DNA from: Rhodothermia bacterium
Lineage (GTDB): Bacteria > Bacteroidota > Rhodothermia > Rhodothermales > UBA2364
Assembly: GCA_017303715.1 (NCBI GenBank)
Contig: JAFLBZ010000025.1
Span: 1 to 64,000, forward strand
DNA length: 64,000 nt
Direction: 5' to 3'
Shown here: one piece after another, positions 42,653 to 48,750 of the stretch
How the letters are laid out: every line of letters starts with the position of its first letter
How positions within the stretch are numbered: the stretch's first letter is position 1
Made by a program: the position numbers and the translations under genes
The notes under the pieces: model-generated
Databases searched by the model: none
What the model was told of the DNA's origin: nothing
Seen by the model: the letters and a program-made list of their open reading frames with translations, nothing else

Positions 42653-42746
42653 GATGGAGGCTAATTCATACGACAAAGGGAACGATTGCGGCTAAAATAC
42701 GGTATCTTGCAGCATAAACCGTTTGCGATTTTTCAAAAAAACTGCC

Positions 42747-43784
42747 ATGTTCGTCCGACGTGACACCCCTGAAGAAAGAAAGACTACCCAAGAGGATCGA
42801 ACGCTGAACAAAACCGATCGCTTGTTTGCTTTGTTAATCTTGATCCAAAGCCGTCCCAATATGACGACCCGTCAGTTGGCCGAGCATTTTGGGGTGAGCC
42901 GTCGCACCATTTTCAGGGACTTACAGAGCCTAGAAAAATCGGGCGTACCACTTACCTATGCTGGAGAATCGGGCGGGTACGAGATTTTGGAGGGCTATCA
43001 ACTCCCACCCTTGATGCTTACGGGACGTGAAGCCGCTGTTTTGCTCCTCGGAACCAATTTCGTGAAACTCCAGACGGATGCTTCCCTGCAAAAAGATGCC
43101 GATGAGGTCGCGCTAAAAATAAAATCTATCCTACCACAAGGGATTCGGGACTACATAGGCCGCATTTTGCAACGAACGGTACTCGATCCCTATTGGCTGA
43201 ATACGGTGACCAATGCCCGCCAAGACGATGCAGAGTCGGGAAAATGGGTACAGGTCTCGGAAGCTATTGCACACCGGAACCCGCTGTTTGTGCGCTATCA
43301 TGTGGCCAGCCGCGAAGAAACCACACGCCGCAGAATTGACCCGCTTGGCCTGATTTATTACTCGGATCACTGGACATTGGTGGGGTTTTGTCATTTGCGG
43401 AAGGACATTCGCTCGTTTCGGTTAGACCAGATGGAAGAGGTTTATACCATGAGTGAGCGCTTTTCCGCACATGAGAAATTTGACCTTCAGACGTATTTAG
43501 AAGAAAAAGGCATGGGACGCCGCATGAGGATTGTGTTACGGTTCTCTAAAAAAATCTATGCGCAGGCACGGAGGAGGATTCCAGCACGGATTGAAGAAGA
43601 ACGGACGGGTGAGACCGATAAGACCGTTGTCTTTTACTTTGAAAATCTATATTATATTGCCAATTGGCTGCTCCAATTTGGAACCAACGTGCAAATCGTG
43701 GAGCCGGCAGCCCTCCGTGAGGCATTTGGCCTTTTACTGGGTAAAATGCAAACCGTCTTGCAAGACTCGGTATCCGTGACCTAA
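42747..43784 (+). CDS. YafY-type transcriptional regulator with WYL domain
   Basis: About 345 residues from the ATG giving MFVRRDTPEE; an upstream TTG is less likely. An N-terminal helix-turn-helix (about 40-95, with MTTRQLAEHFGVSRRTIFRD) is followed by the WYL ligand-binding domain (about 160-230, PLGLIYYSDHWTLVGFCHLR) and a WCX-type extension to the end. WYL regulators often respond to nucleic-acid-type ligands or DNA damage, and some sit in defence islands. It is divergent from the four-helix membrane protein gene and directly upstream of a methyltransferase gene, 15 bp away. Confidence 0.88.
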   Translation: MFVRRDTPEERKTTQEDRTLNKTDRLFALLILIQSRPNMTTRQLAEHFGVSRRTIFRDLQSLEKSGVPLTYAGESGGYEILEGYQLPPLMLTGREAAVLLLGTNFVKLQTDASLQKDADEVALKIKSILPQGIRDYIGRILQRTVLDPYWLNTVTNARQDDAESGKWVQVSEAIAHRNPLFVRYHVASREETTRRRIDPLGLIYYSDHWTLVGFCHLRKDIRSFRLDQMEEVYTMSERFSAHEKFDLQTYLEEKGMGRRMRIVLRFSKKIYAQARRRIPARIEEERTGETDKTVVFYFENLYYIANWLLQFGTNVQIVEPAALREAFGLLLGKMQTVLQDSVSVT

Positions 43785-43799
43785 TTACTTCCCCAAAGC

Positions 43800-44615
43800 A
43801 TGTTTTATGACCCCATAAAAGACCGAATGGGCGCTTTTTTTAGCCGTCGCCCATTGCTCCAACGCCTGTTTTATGCCGGTTTGGATATGGTCTTCTTGCG
43901 TACTTGGCACGTTAAAAAACACATCCGCCAAACGTTTCGGGATTGGCCAAGCGATAAACCATTGCGCATTTTGGATGCCGGAACAGGGTTTGGGCAATAC
44001 GTTTGGTTCTTGGTGCGCAACTTCCCGCAAGCCCAAATTCTGGCGGTAGATGTGAAGGAGGATTATTTGGAGAACGCAAAACGGTTTTTAGACCAAACCC
44101 CATACGCCCAACAAGTGCGATGGGCATGGGCAGACCTTACCGATTTTCATTCCGAAGAACGCTTCGATTTTATCTTGTCGGTAGATGTGATGGAACACAT
44201 CGAGGACGACGAGGCGGTCTTTCGAAATTTTGCGGGGGTCTTGGCCGATGGCGGCTGCGTACTCATCAATACACCGTCCGATTTGGGTGGCTCCGATGCC
44301 GAAATAGAGGGCGAAAGCTTCATCAGTGAACACGTCCGCGATGGTTATAACCTGCACGAATTGCATGAAAAGCTTCGACGTGCCGGATTAGCACCCTTTG
44401 GGTCGGTCTATACCTATGGCCGTTATGGTTCTTTGGCATGGCGTTTATTGTTGAAATATCCGATGAAGATGCTGGGTAAAAGTCGGTTCTTAGCGGTTGT
44501 TTTGCCGGTCTATTATTTGTTTGCCTTGCCGATTGGCTTGGTGTTGAATTGGTTAGACGTTCGTGTCCACAATCCACAAGGAACGGGTGTTTTAGTGATG
44601 TCAAATAAAGGTTAA
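43800..44615 (+). CDS. Class I SAM-dependent methyltransferase
   Basis: 271 residues. Motif I reads LRILDAGTGFGQYVWFL, with the acidic residue of motif II in ILAVDVKEDYL. FDFILSVDVMEHIEDDEAVF is the usual post-motif block. The C-terminal third contains two hydrophobic stretches (AVVLPVYYLFALPIGLVLNW), suggesting membrane association. That architecture is seen in methyltransferases acting on lipids, quinones or cell-wall sugars, but the substrate cannot be assigned. It probably shares a transcript with the WYL regulator just upstream. Confidence 0.82.
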   Translation: MFYDPIKDRMGAFFSRRPLLQRLFYAGLDMVFLRTWHVKKHIRQTFRDWPSDKPLRILDAGTGFGQYVWFLVRNFPQAQILAVDVKEDYLENAKRFLDQTPYAQQVRWAWADLTDFHSEERFDFILSVDVMEHIEDDEAVFRNFAGVLADGGCVLINTPSDLGGSDAEIEGESFISEHVRDGYNLHELHEKLRRAGLAPFGSVYTYGRYGSLAWRLLLKYPMKMLGKSRFLAVVLPVYYLFALPIGLVLNWLDVRVHNPQGTGVLVMSNKG

Positions 44616-44823: not shown

Positions 44824-45969
44824 ATGGCTACACAATGGACTGTTTCCGCCTTTTCTCGTTCACTATTGGCGTGGAGTGGTGGGCTACTACTGATCGGATT
44901 GTGGGCTTCCTTGGCTTGGTTTTCTCCGCTTGCTTCCGAACCCACCCGAACTGCACGAAACGAGGCACGTTATGTATTGGGCAAGTATTTGTTCTTTGAA
45001 AACCAACTCTCGGTAAGTGGAACCAAATCTTGCGGAACGTGTCACGATCCTAAATTGGCTTTTGTGGATCGCTACCGCCGAGGTTTGGGCCTCCATGCCG
45101 AGGTCTTAGCACGTAATACGCCTACCTTGATTAATGTGCGGTATTACAAAACGTTCAACTGGGCCAATCCCGATTTAACCCGCTTGGAAAAACAATTTGA
45201 ACGACCGCTGTTTAATTTACACCCTCCGGAAATGGCCATAGAACGCTCTGACGCCGTTTTGCAAGAGCGGCTCAATAAGTCGGATGCCTACCGTGACCTG
45301 TTTTCCCGTGCTTTCCCCAAAGATGACAATCCGATGCGCTGGGACAATGCCTTGCTGGCTATGGGCGTTTATGTGCGTACCTTAAATTCCTTTAACAGTC
45401 CCTACGACCGATATAAACGAGGCGAAAAACGGGCGATGAGTGCCTCCGCACGGCGCGGTGAGCAACTTTTTAACTCCGAACGCCTACAATGTGCCACTTG
45501 CCATCCCACCCCTTATTTTACCGATAACCGACACGACTCGGATGCCGAGGGATACCACAATATAGGGCTGTATAATGTGGGTGAAAAGGGAGATTATCCC
45601 GACTATGACCAAGGTGTTTTTGCCTTTTCCAAAAAACCGGAAGACCGTGGACGATTCAAAACGCCCTCCTTGCGAAATGTGGAACTGACGCCGCCCTACA
45701 TGCACGACGGAAGTATTGAAACCTTAGACGAGGTGATTACCTTCTTTGAACAAGCCGGACGGAACGTAACACATGGGCCTTATGCGGGAGACGGACGGAA
45801 AAATCCGCACAAGAGTGATAAATTAAAACCGTTTACCCTAACCCCGCGTGAACGCAACGACTTGTTGGCCTTCCTGCGTACACTGACGGATTCTACGGTC
45901 TTGCGCAACCCCGACTTTTTGCGCCCAAAGGACATTTGGGAACAGCCTCCCGTCACCGGAAAGTACTGA
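44824..45969 (+). CDS. Di-heme peroxidase of the MauG/MbnH type (MXAN_0977-like)
   Basis: 381 residues with an N-terminal membrane or signal segment (about 10-35). Two covalent heme sites: CGTCH at 70-74 and CATCH at 223-227. The C-terminal part, with NIGLYNVGEKGDYPDYDQGV, KPEDRGRFKTPSLRNVELTP and PPYMHDGSIETLDEV, matches the MXAN_0977/MbnH branch more closely than classical cytochrome c peroxidase. MbnH oxidises a Trp of its partner MbnP, and MauG matures the quinone cofactor of methylamine dehydrogenase. The usual MbnP-type partner is not next door. Instead an amine-oxidase-like gene follows after 36 bp. It acts in the periplasm. Confidence 0.82.
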   Translation: MATQWTVSAFSRSLLAWSGGLLLIGLWASLAWFSPLASEPTRTARNEARYVLGKYLFFENQLSVSGTKSCGTCHDPKLAFVDRYRRGLGLHAEVLARNTPTLINVRYYKTFNWANPDLTRLEKQFERPLFNLHPPEMAIERSDAVLQERLNKSDAYRDLFSRAFPKDDNPMRWDNALLAMGVYVRTLNSFNSPYDRYKRGEKRAMSASARRGEQLFNSERLQCATCHPTPYFTDNRHDSDAEGYHNIGLYNVGEKGDYPDYDQGVFAFSKKPEDRGRFKTPSLRNVELTPPYMHDGSIETLDEVITFFEQAGRNVTHGPYAGDGRKNPHKSDKLKPFTLTPRERNDLLAFLRTLTDSTVLRNPDFLRPKDIWEQPPVTGKY

Positions 45970-46005
45970 TTTGTAATGATCCTTTAGTTTTGAACCTCTA
46001 TACCT

Positions 46006-47724
46006 ATGAAACCGACTCGACTTCTCTGCATCGCCGTTCTGGGACTCATTTTCTTGTTTCAGGCTGGCTTGGCACAGACCGACTCCACTCAAACCATTTT
46101 TTTGCGTAAAGCCCAAGCCAAGATGGTAGCCGCTCTCCAAAATGCAGTACCTGTGATTAAGTTGGAAAACTTGACAGCCCAACAACAATTTGCACAGGAA
46201 GTGGCGCTTCAACATCCTTTCTTTAAGCAAAACCTGTTCGAGAAAGACACCAATAAACCCCTACGGAACGAGATTTTTGGCATATATCAAGCACGTCCCA
46301 CCGATTATCGCTCCGAGCAAATTGCAGCAGCCTGTGCTTCGGGGGGCTGTTATCGGGTGGAGATGTACAATTATCCGCTGAACATCACAACGATTGGTCT
46401 GGTGAATACCGCATCGAACACGATGTTGGATGGCTATATCATGAACCAAGCACAGCCCAATATTCCTGCTTTTCTGAAAGATGTGGCATTAGAGATTGCC
46501 GTAAATGCGCCAGAAGTGGCAACGGCTTTGGGGTTTAAACCCAGTACAGATCAAGCCTTGATGTCTGACACCAAAACAGCCCTCAACCAAACCCGTTGCG
46601 AGCGCTCCAAAAACCTTTGCGTGGCCCCAACTTTTGTAAAAGGAGACCGCGCTCTTTGGGCGATTGTGAACCTAACAGAGATGAAATTGGTGGGCGTCCG
46701 TTGGACCAATGTGGGAACACCCGGCCCTGCTCCACAAATGACGGAGCGCAAATTCCAGAACGAAGAAATCACCGAAAAATACTGCACGCTACCGCTTTCC
46801 ATCGAACGTAATGGCTGGAAGATGAACTACATCATCACCAGTTCGGATGGCCTACAGGTCTCGAATGCCTCGTTCAATAGCAAGCCCGTTATTGATAGTG
46901 CAAAATTGGTGGATTGGCACGTAAGCTACTCTGAACCAGAAGGATTTGGGTATAGCGATGCCATTGGTTGCCCCTATTTTAGCACGGCAGCCGTGATCGC
47001 CATAGATCCGCCCGTAGTGAGCGACCTTTTGGAGAATGGCAAAACCATTGGTTTTACGATCGTCCAAGATTTCTTTAGCGAATTGTGGCCACAAGCCTGT
47101 AACTATAAATACCAACAACGCTTTGAGTTCTATGAGGATGGGCGATTCCGCGTTTCTGCCGCCAATCATGGGCGCGGATGTGGCAACAATGGAACCTACC
47201 GACCCGTAACCCGCATTGCCTTCCCCACAAAGCCTTATACCTTCTCGGAATGGCAAAATGGTAAGTGGATTTCTTGGAAAACCGAAAAATGGCAACGCCA
47301 AAAACCCACAACCCCTTATACCAAAGAAGGCTACCAATACAAAGTGAATGATACCGCCGGAAATGGGTTCTACATCGCCGCCAACAATGGGCAACTCTAC
47401 AACCATCAACGAAGCGATAATGCTTATGTATTTGTAACCAAACGTAATCCCGCAAAAGACGAGGGCGACTCGGACTTGATTACCATTGGGCCTTGTTGTA
47501 ATTCCGATCATCAGCAAGGACCGGAGAAGTTTATGGTTCCGCCAGAGTCTATCAGCAAAGCACCCTTGGTCATGTGGTACGTTCCCCAAATTCGCAATGA
47601 CGACACTCCCGGACGCGAATTTTGCTGGGCAGATAGCTACATCAACGAGCAGGGGGTATATGCCACCCGAACGTATCCGTGCCTTTCCGGGCCAATGTTT
47701 GTGCCGCTTAAACTTAAGCCATAG
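46006..47724 (+). CDS. Secreted copper-amine-oxidase-like protein with altered metal site
   Basis: 572 residues with a signal peptide (IAVLGLIFLFQAGLAQ). From about residue 250 it resembles the copper amine oxidase catalytic domain: RNGWKMNYIITSSDGLQVSN, then LVDWHVSYSEPEGFGYSD, and CNYKYQQRFEFYEDGRFRVS. In true enzymes the Tyr of an N-Y-(D/E)-Y motif becomes topaquinone; here N366-Y367-K368-Y369 keeps the Tyr but not the acidic residue. The downstream His-x-His copper ligands are replaced: the matching stretch reads NGTYRPVTRIAF (Y398). It is Cys-rich (CASGGC, GPCCN), fitting a disulfide-bonded exported protein. This is recognition of a remote pattern by eye. A structural role, or a cofactor made without copper, are alternatives. 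Confidence 0.55.
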   Translation: MKPTRLLCIAVLGLIFLFQAGLAQTDSTQTIFLRKAQAKMVAALQNAVPVIKLENLTAQQQFAQEVALQHPFFKQNLFEKDTNKPLRNEIFGIYQARPTDYRSEQIAAACASGGCYRVEMYNYPLNITTIGLVNTASNTMLDGYIMNQAQPNIPAFLKDVALEIAVNAPEVATALGFKPSTDQALMSDTKTALNQTRCERSKNLCVAPTFVKGDRALWAIVNLTEMKLVGVRWTNVGTPGPAPQMTERKFQNEEITEKYCTLPLSIERNGWKMNYIITSSDGLQVSNASFNSKPVIDSAKLVDWHVSYSEPEGFGYSDAIGCPYFSTAAVIAIDPPVVSDLLENGKTIGFTIVQDFFSELWPQACNYKYQQRFEFYEDGRFRVSAANHGRGCGNNGTYRPVTRIAFPTKPYTFSEWQNGKWISWKTEKWQRQKPTTPYTKEGYQYKVNDTAGNGFYIAANNGQLYNHQRSDNAYVFVTKRNPAKDEGDSDLITIGPCCNSDHQQGPEKFMVPPESISKAPLVMWYVPQIRNDDTPGREFCWADSYINEQGVYATRTYPCLSGPMFVPLKLKP

Positions 47725-47784
47725 TCCAATATTTTGTCGCTTGTATGAGCGGTTAAATCACGTAAAAACAAGTACTAAACCTGT

Positions 47785-48750
47785 ATGAACATGAAGCATC
47801 TGCTGAAAGGTCTTGTATGGATGGGGCTGTTTTTGGTAACGGCTCATCTGGTCTTTGCACAAAATGCGCCACCAATGACATCACCCGCAAAAGGCCAACC
47901 AGACTGCCGGCGATCGCCCGCTTTTACCCGAAATACCAATATAGATCCGCTGCGTTCGGCCTTCAGTACATCCAATATGCAATACGTTGGGCTGATTTAT
48001 ACAGAGATAAACCTGCCTAATACACCCCCTCAAGACCCAAGTCAAAAACTTAAGGTCTATCAACATCCATCATGGAAAATGGCGGGGTACTTTGGCCCGA
48101 TGATTATTGATGCGGCTGGAAATATCTTTTTGGCTCCGTTACCCTTTGTAAACCTTTACCGCAACAAGCCTTCGCAGCAAAATATGCTTTATCGTGTTGA
48201 ACCAATCACCGCCGCACTGAAAAGCTATTTTACCTTTCCGACAGTTCATAAACCAAACGAACAAAATCCGTATGGGATTCTTGGGATGGGCTACGACTGC
48301 GAGTCCAAGATTATTTACGCCAGTTCGGTACAAGGTTCTGATCGGACGAATGAACGAGGACGGATTTATGCGCTCAAAACGGGTGATAAGCCCGTCATCT
48401 TAGACGTAATCCCCGATGTAGATGCGTTTGGGATCGGAATTTTTACGTTTGAAGGCAAAAAACGGATGATCTTTGGGAAAGCCCGAACGCCAGAAATCTA
48501 TATGGTAGCGCTGACGCCAGAGGGAACGTTTGAGGGAAAACCAGAATTTGTTCTCTCGCTCGAAGGTGTTGGAGCGCGTGGGGATGACCGCGCCCGCAAA
48601 ATCCGAGTGGCAGAAAATGGCGACCTCACGATAAACGGCGTTGAATTTTATTTTAACCTGATTGCGCCCTCAGAACGCCAAGAAACACCCTATACCTTTC
48701 GCTACGATCCTCGCCAAAAAGCATGGGTACTGATCAAAATTGGGCATTAA
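47785..48750 (+). CDS. Secreted protein of unknown function, possible beta-propeller
   Basis: 321 residues with a clear signal peptide (GLVWMGLFLVTAHLVFAQ). The mature chain shows repeating strand-turn units with DAAGNIF, ESKIIYASS, GRIYALKTG and EIYMVALTPEGT, the kind of pattern seen in six- or seven-blade propellers such as NHL or SMP-30 proteins. I do not recognise a specific family. It follows the amine-oxidase-like gene by 60 bp on the same strand, so the three genes from the di-heme peroxidase onward look like one unit. In methylamine dehydrogenase the large subunit is a propeller, an analogy rather than homology evidence. Confidence 0.6.
   Translation: MNMKHLLKGLVWMGLFLVTAHLVFAQNAPPMTSPAKGQPDCRRSPAFTRNTNIDPLRSAFSTSNMQYVGLIYTEINLPNTPPQDPSQKLKVYQHPSWKMAGYFGPMIIDAAGNIFLAPLPFVNLYRNKPSQQNMLYRVEPITAALKSYFTFPTVHKPNEQNPYGILGMGYDCESKIIYASSVQGSDRTNERGRIYALKTGDKPVILDVIPDVDAFGIGIFTFEGKKRMIFGKARTPEIYMVALTPEGTFEGKPEFVLSLEGVGARGDDRARKIRVAENGDLTINGVEFYFNLIAPSERQETPYTFRYDPRQKAWVLIKIGH

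Follow-up and report, generated by a model that had tools for sequence, protein, structure and literature searches.

We identified a three-gene module of predicted exported proteins in a 64,000-nucleotide stretch (hereafter the window; contig JAFLBZ010000025.1, positions 1 to 64,000, forward strand; assembly GCA_017303715.1) from a Rhodothermia bacterium. It consists of an MbnH-family di-heme enzyme (g1), a protein with the predicted fold of copper amine oxidases (CuAOs) that lacks the copper-ligand histidines (g2), and a predicted beta-propeller protein (g3). We propose, with a probability of roughly 0.45, that g1 is a dedicated maturase of g2 that acts at the former topaquinone site, within a secreted unit of g2 and g3. 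In this pairing, g2 is likely a new type of substrate for MbnH-like enzymes.

A check of the open reading frames of the window agreed with a reading made earlier from the sequence alone (the sequence-only reading): the three genes lie on the same (+) strand with gaps of 36 bp (g1–g2) and 60 bp (g2–g3), and g1 carries heme motifs CGTCH and CATCH beginning at residues 70 and 223. Export of each protein is predicted from a hydrophobic N-terminus, judged by eye. The features are as follows.

44824..45969, + strand: g1, MbnH-family di-heme enzyme, predicted exported, 381 amino acids (TIGR04039, CCP_MauG, 6e1c, clade 100/99)
45031..45045, + strand: first heme motif CGTCH, g1 residues 70–74, peroxidatic heme by homology; invariant in all g1 homologs
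45490..45504, + strand: second heme motif CATCH, g1 residues 223–227; invariant in g1 homologs
45745..45747, + strand: codon of g1 Phe308, in the column that holds the axial Tyr ligand of the second heme in MauG, BthA and MbnH; column placed by alignment to 6nx0 and 6v59
46006..47724, + strand: g2, protein of predicted CuAO fold without copper-ligand histidines, predicted exported, 572 amino acids (AlphaFold model, fold comparison, profile alignment)
46927..46929, + strand: g2 Tyr308, counterpart in the alignment of the active-site Tyr of CuAOs (Tyr369 in the mature E. coli enzyme); 44/44 homologs
47098..47112, + strand: g2 C365-N-Y367-K-Y369, with Y367 at the position of the topaquinone tyrosine (Y496 of the E. 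coli TynA precursor); C365, Y367 and Y369 in 44/44
47191..47214, + strand: g2 G396-T-Y398-R-P-V-T-R403, where the HxH copper ligands have been lost; R403 aligned with TynA R561
47575..47598, + strand: g2 W524–N531, where the third copper histidine has been lost; W524 aligned with TynA W712, Asn531 in 44/44 if read without gaps
47785..48750, + strand: g3, predicted beta-propeller partner, predicted exported, 321 amino acids (model, Z 17.2, adjoins g2 in 43/51 loci)

The amine-oxidase-like character that had been assigned to g2 was borne out by its AlphaFold model (predicted local distance difference test score, pLDDT, 85), which matches CuAOs over residues 56–572 in structure comparison (Z 21.6) and by Foldseek (E 3e-19); the g2 profile aligned with eight classical CuAOs at 97% probability. 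The window protein scores 18.8 bits against PF01179, below the gathering score of 27, and all 44 g2 homologs match this family at lower stringency (best E 1.5e-9). A PDB sequence search gave no matches for g2 alone and, for the g2 profile, nothing beyond weak matches to diamine oxidases (E 0.7–0.9), so that structure comparison was needed to establish the fold.

Residues of g2 were counted in an alignment of the 44 homologs, and their CuAO counterparts were taken from the profile alignment and a joint alignment with CuAOs. Tyr367, Tyr308, Arg403 and Trp524 are invariant (44/44). The counterpart of Tyr308 in true CuAOs contacts topaquinone; in the joint placement Arg403 is the Arg that follows the CuAO HxH motif and Trp524 lies seven residues before the third copper histidine. 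None of the 44 homologs has a histidine at the copper-ligand positions, all three copper histidines being gone. Counting from Arg403 and Trp524 with no gaps puts Gly/Ala, Tyr and Asn in the ligand positions; the joint alignment places gaps at HxH, which makes the exact counterparts uncertain and leaves the absence firm. The only histidines conserved in the family as a whole are His305 and His203, the latter being Asn in the window protein. Close to Tyr367 in sequence, Tyr369 and Cys365 are invariant and Trp361 is near-invariant. TynA D413, the CuAO catalytic Asp, falls in an alignment gap, near which D318 of g2 is invariant. Eight cysteines are invariant; the homolog at locus L061 lacks both Cys540 and Cys559, and this joint loss suggests that the two form a disulfide. 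By model and alignment, g2 is a CuAO relative that has lost the copper site and kept the cofactor tyrosine. Because the copper histidines are lost throughout while the tyrosine at the topaquinone site is invariant, the earlier idea of a cofactor made without copper-driven self-processing gains support; the modified residue is one that we infer.

The third protein, described earlier as propeller-like, is predicted to be a YncE/SMP30-like beta-propeller, with a model (pLDDT 91) similar to a beta-propeller lactonase (Z 17.2) and a YncE model matching 24 of 35 homologs.

The MbnH-like assignment of g1 likewise held: it exceeds the cut-off of the NCBIfam MbnH model TIGR04039 (371.9 against 362.85 bits), matches Pfam CCP_MauG (143 bits) and has the MbnH entry 6e1c as its best solved structure in a PDB sequence search (E 2e-73), whereas it stays below the cut-off of the MauG equivalog TIGR03791 (178.1 vs 443.85 bits). 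A tree of 57 di-heme enzymes places 18 of the 20 encoded near g2 in one clade (100/99) that is sister to the MbnHs; one MbnH of this sister group adjoins a WxW MbnP-like gene. Two loci considered as additional g1–g2 pairs, L047 and L061, were discarded, their enzymes lying outside the clade with His or Met at the axial column. The heme histidines H74 and H227 and the peroxide-pocket residues Gln124, Pro128 and Glu136 are kept in 20/20 g1 enzymes. No MbnP-type gene lies next to g1, as had been noted from the sequence. The same genome encodes three further MauG/MbnH paralogs, two of which adjoin MbnP-like genes; these MbnH-like/MbnP-like pairs, on contigs C15 and C23 (L013, L014), hold the only MbnP-like genes found in the genome.

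A survey with one genome per species yielded 51 g2 loci, from Bacteroidota, Chloroflexota, Gammaproteobacteria and one Acidobacteriota draft; a plasmid search for g2 found none. As g3 stands beside g2 in 43/51 loci, with five of the remaining eight being contig ends, cut contigs or fragments, the constant pair is g2 and g3 and not g1 and g2. One locus on a contig labelled Bacteroidetes (L063) has the gene order of Chloroflexota locus L044 and is probably misbinned. Co-occurrence of the whole trio, which the sequence-only reading had anticipated, holds mainly for Bacteroidota, to which g1 directly upstream of g2 is almost confined (17/19 rows in the Bacteroidota part of the g2 tree).

Within Bacteroidota, g1 and g2 were gained and lost together. 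A TIGR04039 match above 350 bits was present in 4/4 genomes with g2 and in 0/292 without it (296 genomes; Fisher p 3e-9), and module-type g1 in 3/3 Dyadobacter genomes with a full g2 and 0/45 others (48 genomes; Fisher p 6e-5), although both tests ignore shared ancestry, which lessens their weight in favour of a maturase. Module-type g1 of Dyadobacter scores 494–514 bits, the next best enzyme 243. One Dyadobacter genome (G457; L135, 3552–5151) carries a decayed module, in which some 60 codons of g2, joined to its own C-terminal end, and a C-terminal remnant of g1 are left in the same place, with g3 still an intact open frame. In one Chloroflexota family in which no linked g1 was seen, an MbnH-like di-heme enzyme is encoded in 5/5 g2-bearing and 9/95 other genomes; 13 of these 14 enzymes are open frames of 745–788 amino acids, and the three that were scanned are beta-helix fusions. 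The enzymes at L086, L085 and L087 and their Chloroflexota relatives join a right-handed beta-helix to an MbnH-like di-heme domain (~740–790 amino acids), and a small cytochrome c gene often lies upstream; enzymes of this kind are present in all five g2-bearing genomes of the family.

In the mechanism that we propose, g2 and g3 would form a secreted two-protein unit of a copper-less CuAO-fold protein and a beta-propeller partner, the latter with a structural or electron-transfer role. Periplasmic g1 would activate hydrogen peroxide (H2O2) at its first heme and oxidise or cross-link a g2 residue at what was once the amine-oxidase active site, its target being g2 rather than g3 or a small molecule. 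The best candidate is the invariant Tyr367, with Cys365, Tyr369 and Trp361 as neighbours; the product would be a protein-derived cofactor made without copper, and amine oxidation may be the resulting activity. The more specific version, that an MbnH-derived enzyme without the axial Tyr acts in trans on a CuAO-fold protein free of copper and builds in it a Tyr-based cofactor (a quinone or a Tyr-Cys or Tyr-Trp link), we consider rather unlikely.

Several observations weigh against a dedicated maturase. The axial-ligand column of the second heme, fixed by alignment to wild-type BthA (6nx0) and its Met variant (6v59), holds Phe308 in the window g1 instead of the Tyr ligand of MbnH. Across the g2-linked clade (n = 18) ten members have Phe in this column (the three genomes of the window's genus all do), seven have Tyr and one has Ser; Tyr occupies it in 37/37 homologs without a link to g2. 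The inter-heme Trp is lost in 6/18 clade members. By its sequences the clade appears to be in the course of losing the axial Tyr, for which we found no literature report. The bis-Fe(IV) state is lost in MauG Y294H and in BthA Y463H/M, and the BthA variants keep peroxidase turnover (PMC6405878). Bis-Fe(IV) chemistry is therefore improbable for the g1 of this genome; the intact peroxide pocket, together with the turnover kept in those variants, implies that g1 should still activate H2O2, probably by a route other than that of MauG. Of the earlier suggestion that the peroxidase modifies g2 as MauG and MbnH modify their partners, co-inheritance of g1 and g2 supports the partnership, and Phe308 makes a MauG-type route doubtful. 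Distribution and conservation also count against the proposal: g1 is not linked to g2 at most loci of Chloroflexota, Gammaproteobacteria and Acidobacteriota, 4 of the 27 g2-bearing genomes examined (draft assemblies) gave no match at all to the MbnH model, and in Chloroflexota both genes may simply follow an aerobic mode of life. The residues at the putative active site of g2 do not differ between loci that have a linked g1 and loci that lack one. C110 and K508 alone, of the residue types checked, separate the two groups, neither at the former active site, and the g2 positions that track Phe or Tyr in g1 are a few variable sites, with nothing telling among them.

The changed heme ligand is also compatible with a role of g1 as a peroxidase or electron carrier beside g2 and g3, removing H2O2 made by g2 or taking up its electrons without modifying it: Phe308 is an axial-Tyr loss of the kind that leaves turnover in the BthA variants (PMC6405878), the gene near g2 at L061 has Met at the axial column like ordinary peroxidases, and four gammaproteobacterial loci (L055, L056, L058, L060) have, in place of the absent g1, a small monoheme cytochrome c gene (135–158 amino acids) overlapping or following g3. 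We consider this explanation possible and on balance unlikely, given that the axial Tyr is kept in 7/18 clade members and that the closest relatives of g1, the MbnHs, modify proteins; moreover, H2O2 production by g2 would itself need maturation, because g2 has neither copper nor an identified cofactor. Somewhat less probable still is that g2 is a catalytically dead relative of CuAOs with a role in binding or assembling surface material, with g1 oxidising Tyr or other groups on g2, g3 or an adhesin to cross-link them. Giant SdrD_B/DUF11 adhesin-like proteins are encoded near g2 in 12 loci from several phyla, with one more, bearing a secretion tail, in Dyadobacter, and both the lost copper ligands and the catalytic Asp without a clear counterpart would fit such a role; yet the adhesin is missing from most loci, and invariance of Tyr308, Tyr367, Tyr369 and Arg403 over four phyla would be unusual for a dead enzyme. 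The scarcity of linked g1 outside Bacteroidota, where g2 keeps the same residues, could finally mean that the tie between g1 and g2 reflects operon history in that phylum only and that g2 and g3 work without any di-heme enzyme. We regard this as improbable, since the two genes were gained and lost together within Dyadobacter, both have decayed in G457, and g2 correlates with an unlinked di-heme enzyme in Chloroflexota.

If g1 does build a Tyr-based cofactor in g2, an external heme enzyme would have taken over the topaquinone-site chemistry that in true CuAOs is copper self-processing. The cofactor of CuAOs is normally made by copper, and to our knowledge few substrates of the MauG/MbnH family have been recognised; maturation of g2 by g1 would add the CuAO fold to these, and takeover of a quinone site by an external maturase would become directly testable. 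The exchange of Tyr for Phe at a heme ligand within one clade offers a natural series on the need for bis-Fe(IV) in protein modification, and g2-bearing hosts are available in culture (Dyadobacter soli DSM 25329).

On the strand of g1 and upstream of it, the window encodes a WYL-domain regulator and an S-adenosylmethionine (SAM) methyltransferase (42723–44615), which are retained in both sister genomes; Rfam and tRNA scans of the window gave no matches. Giant adhesin-like proteins with SdrD_B, DUF11 or SprB repeats were seen near g2 and g3 at L021, L024, L026, L028, L031, L035, L038, L041, L050, L065 and L069.

The component families of the module are known; their pairing, an MbnH-type enzyme with a copper-less CuAO, was not reported in the literature searched, with subscription papers and preprints outside its scope. 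The nearest precedent is the mtoX-SCO1-mauG operon, in which a mauG-like gene accompanies another secreted enzyme and maturation of a Trp-derived cofactor has been proposed (PMC5739008). MtoX is a copper-binding enzyme of the SBP56 family whose histidines are conserved and which is accompanied by a copper chaperone gene, whereas g2 has no copper ligands and no chaperone gene was seen at its locus. The system of MauG and methylamine dehydrogenase, in which tryptophan tryptophylquinone (TTQ) is synthesised, resembles the module in joining a di-heme enzyme to a propeller-containing partner unit. Methylamine dehydrogenase, too, has a propeller subunit. The module differs in that g1 is under the MauG cut-off and has no axial Tyr, and in that the partner fold is that of CuAOs and not of the TTQ subunit. 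With MbnH/MbnP (TIGR04039/TIGR04052) the module shares an enzyme above the MbnH cut-off, from a clade sister to the MbnHs, linked to the gene of an exported partner; this partner is a predicted CuAO-fold protein instead of MbnP, and the axial Tyr is replaced by Phe308. With the topaquinone-containing CuAOs, such as E. coli TynA, g2 shares the predicted fold, the domain order, the N-Y-x-Y topaquinone motif and the active-site Tyr, and it differs from them in the loss of all three copper histidines, in its MauG-like neighbour and in its propeller partner.

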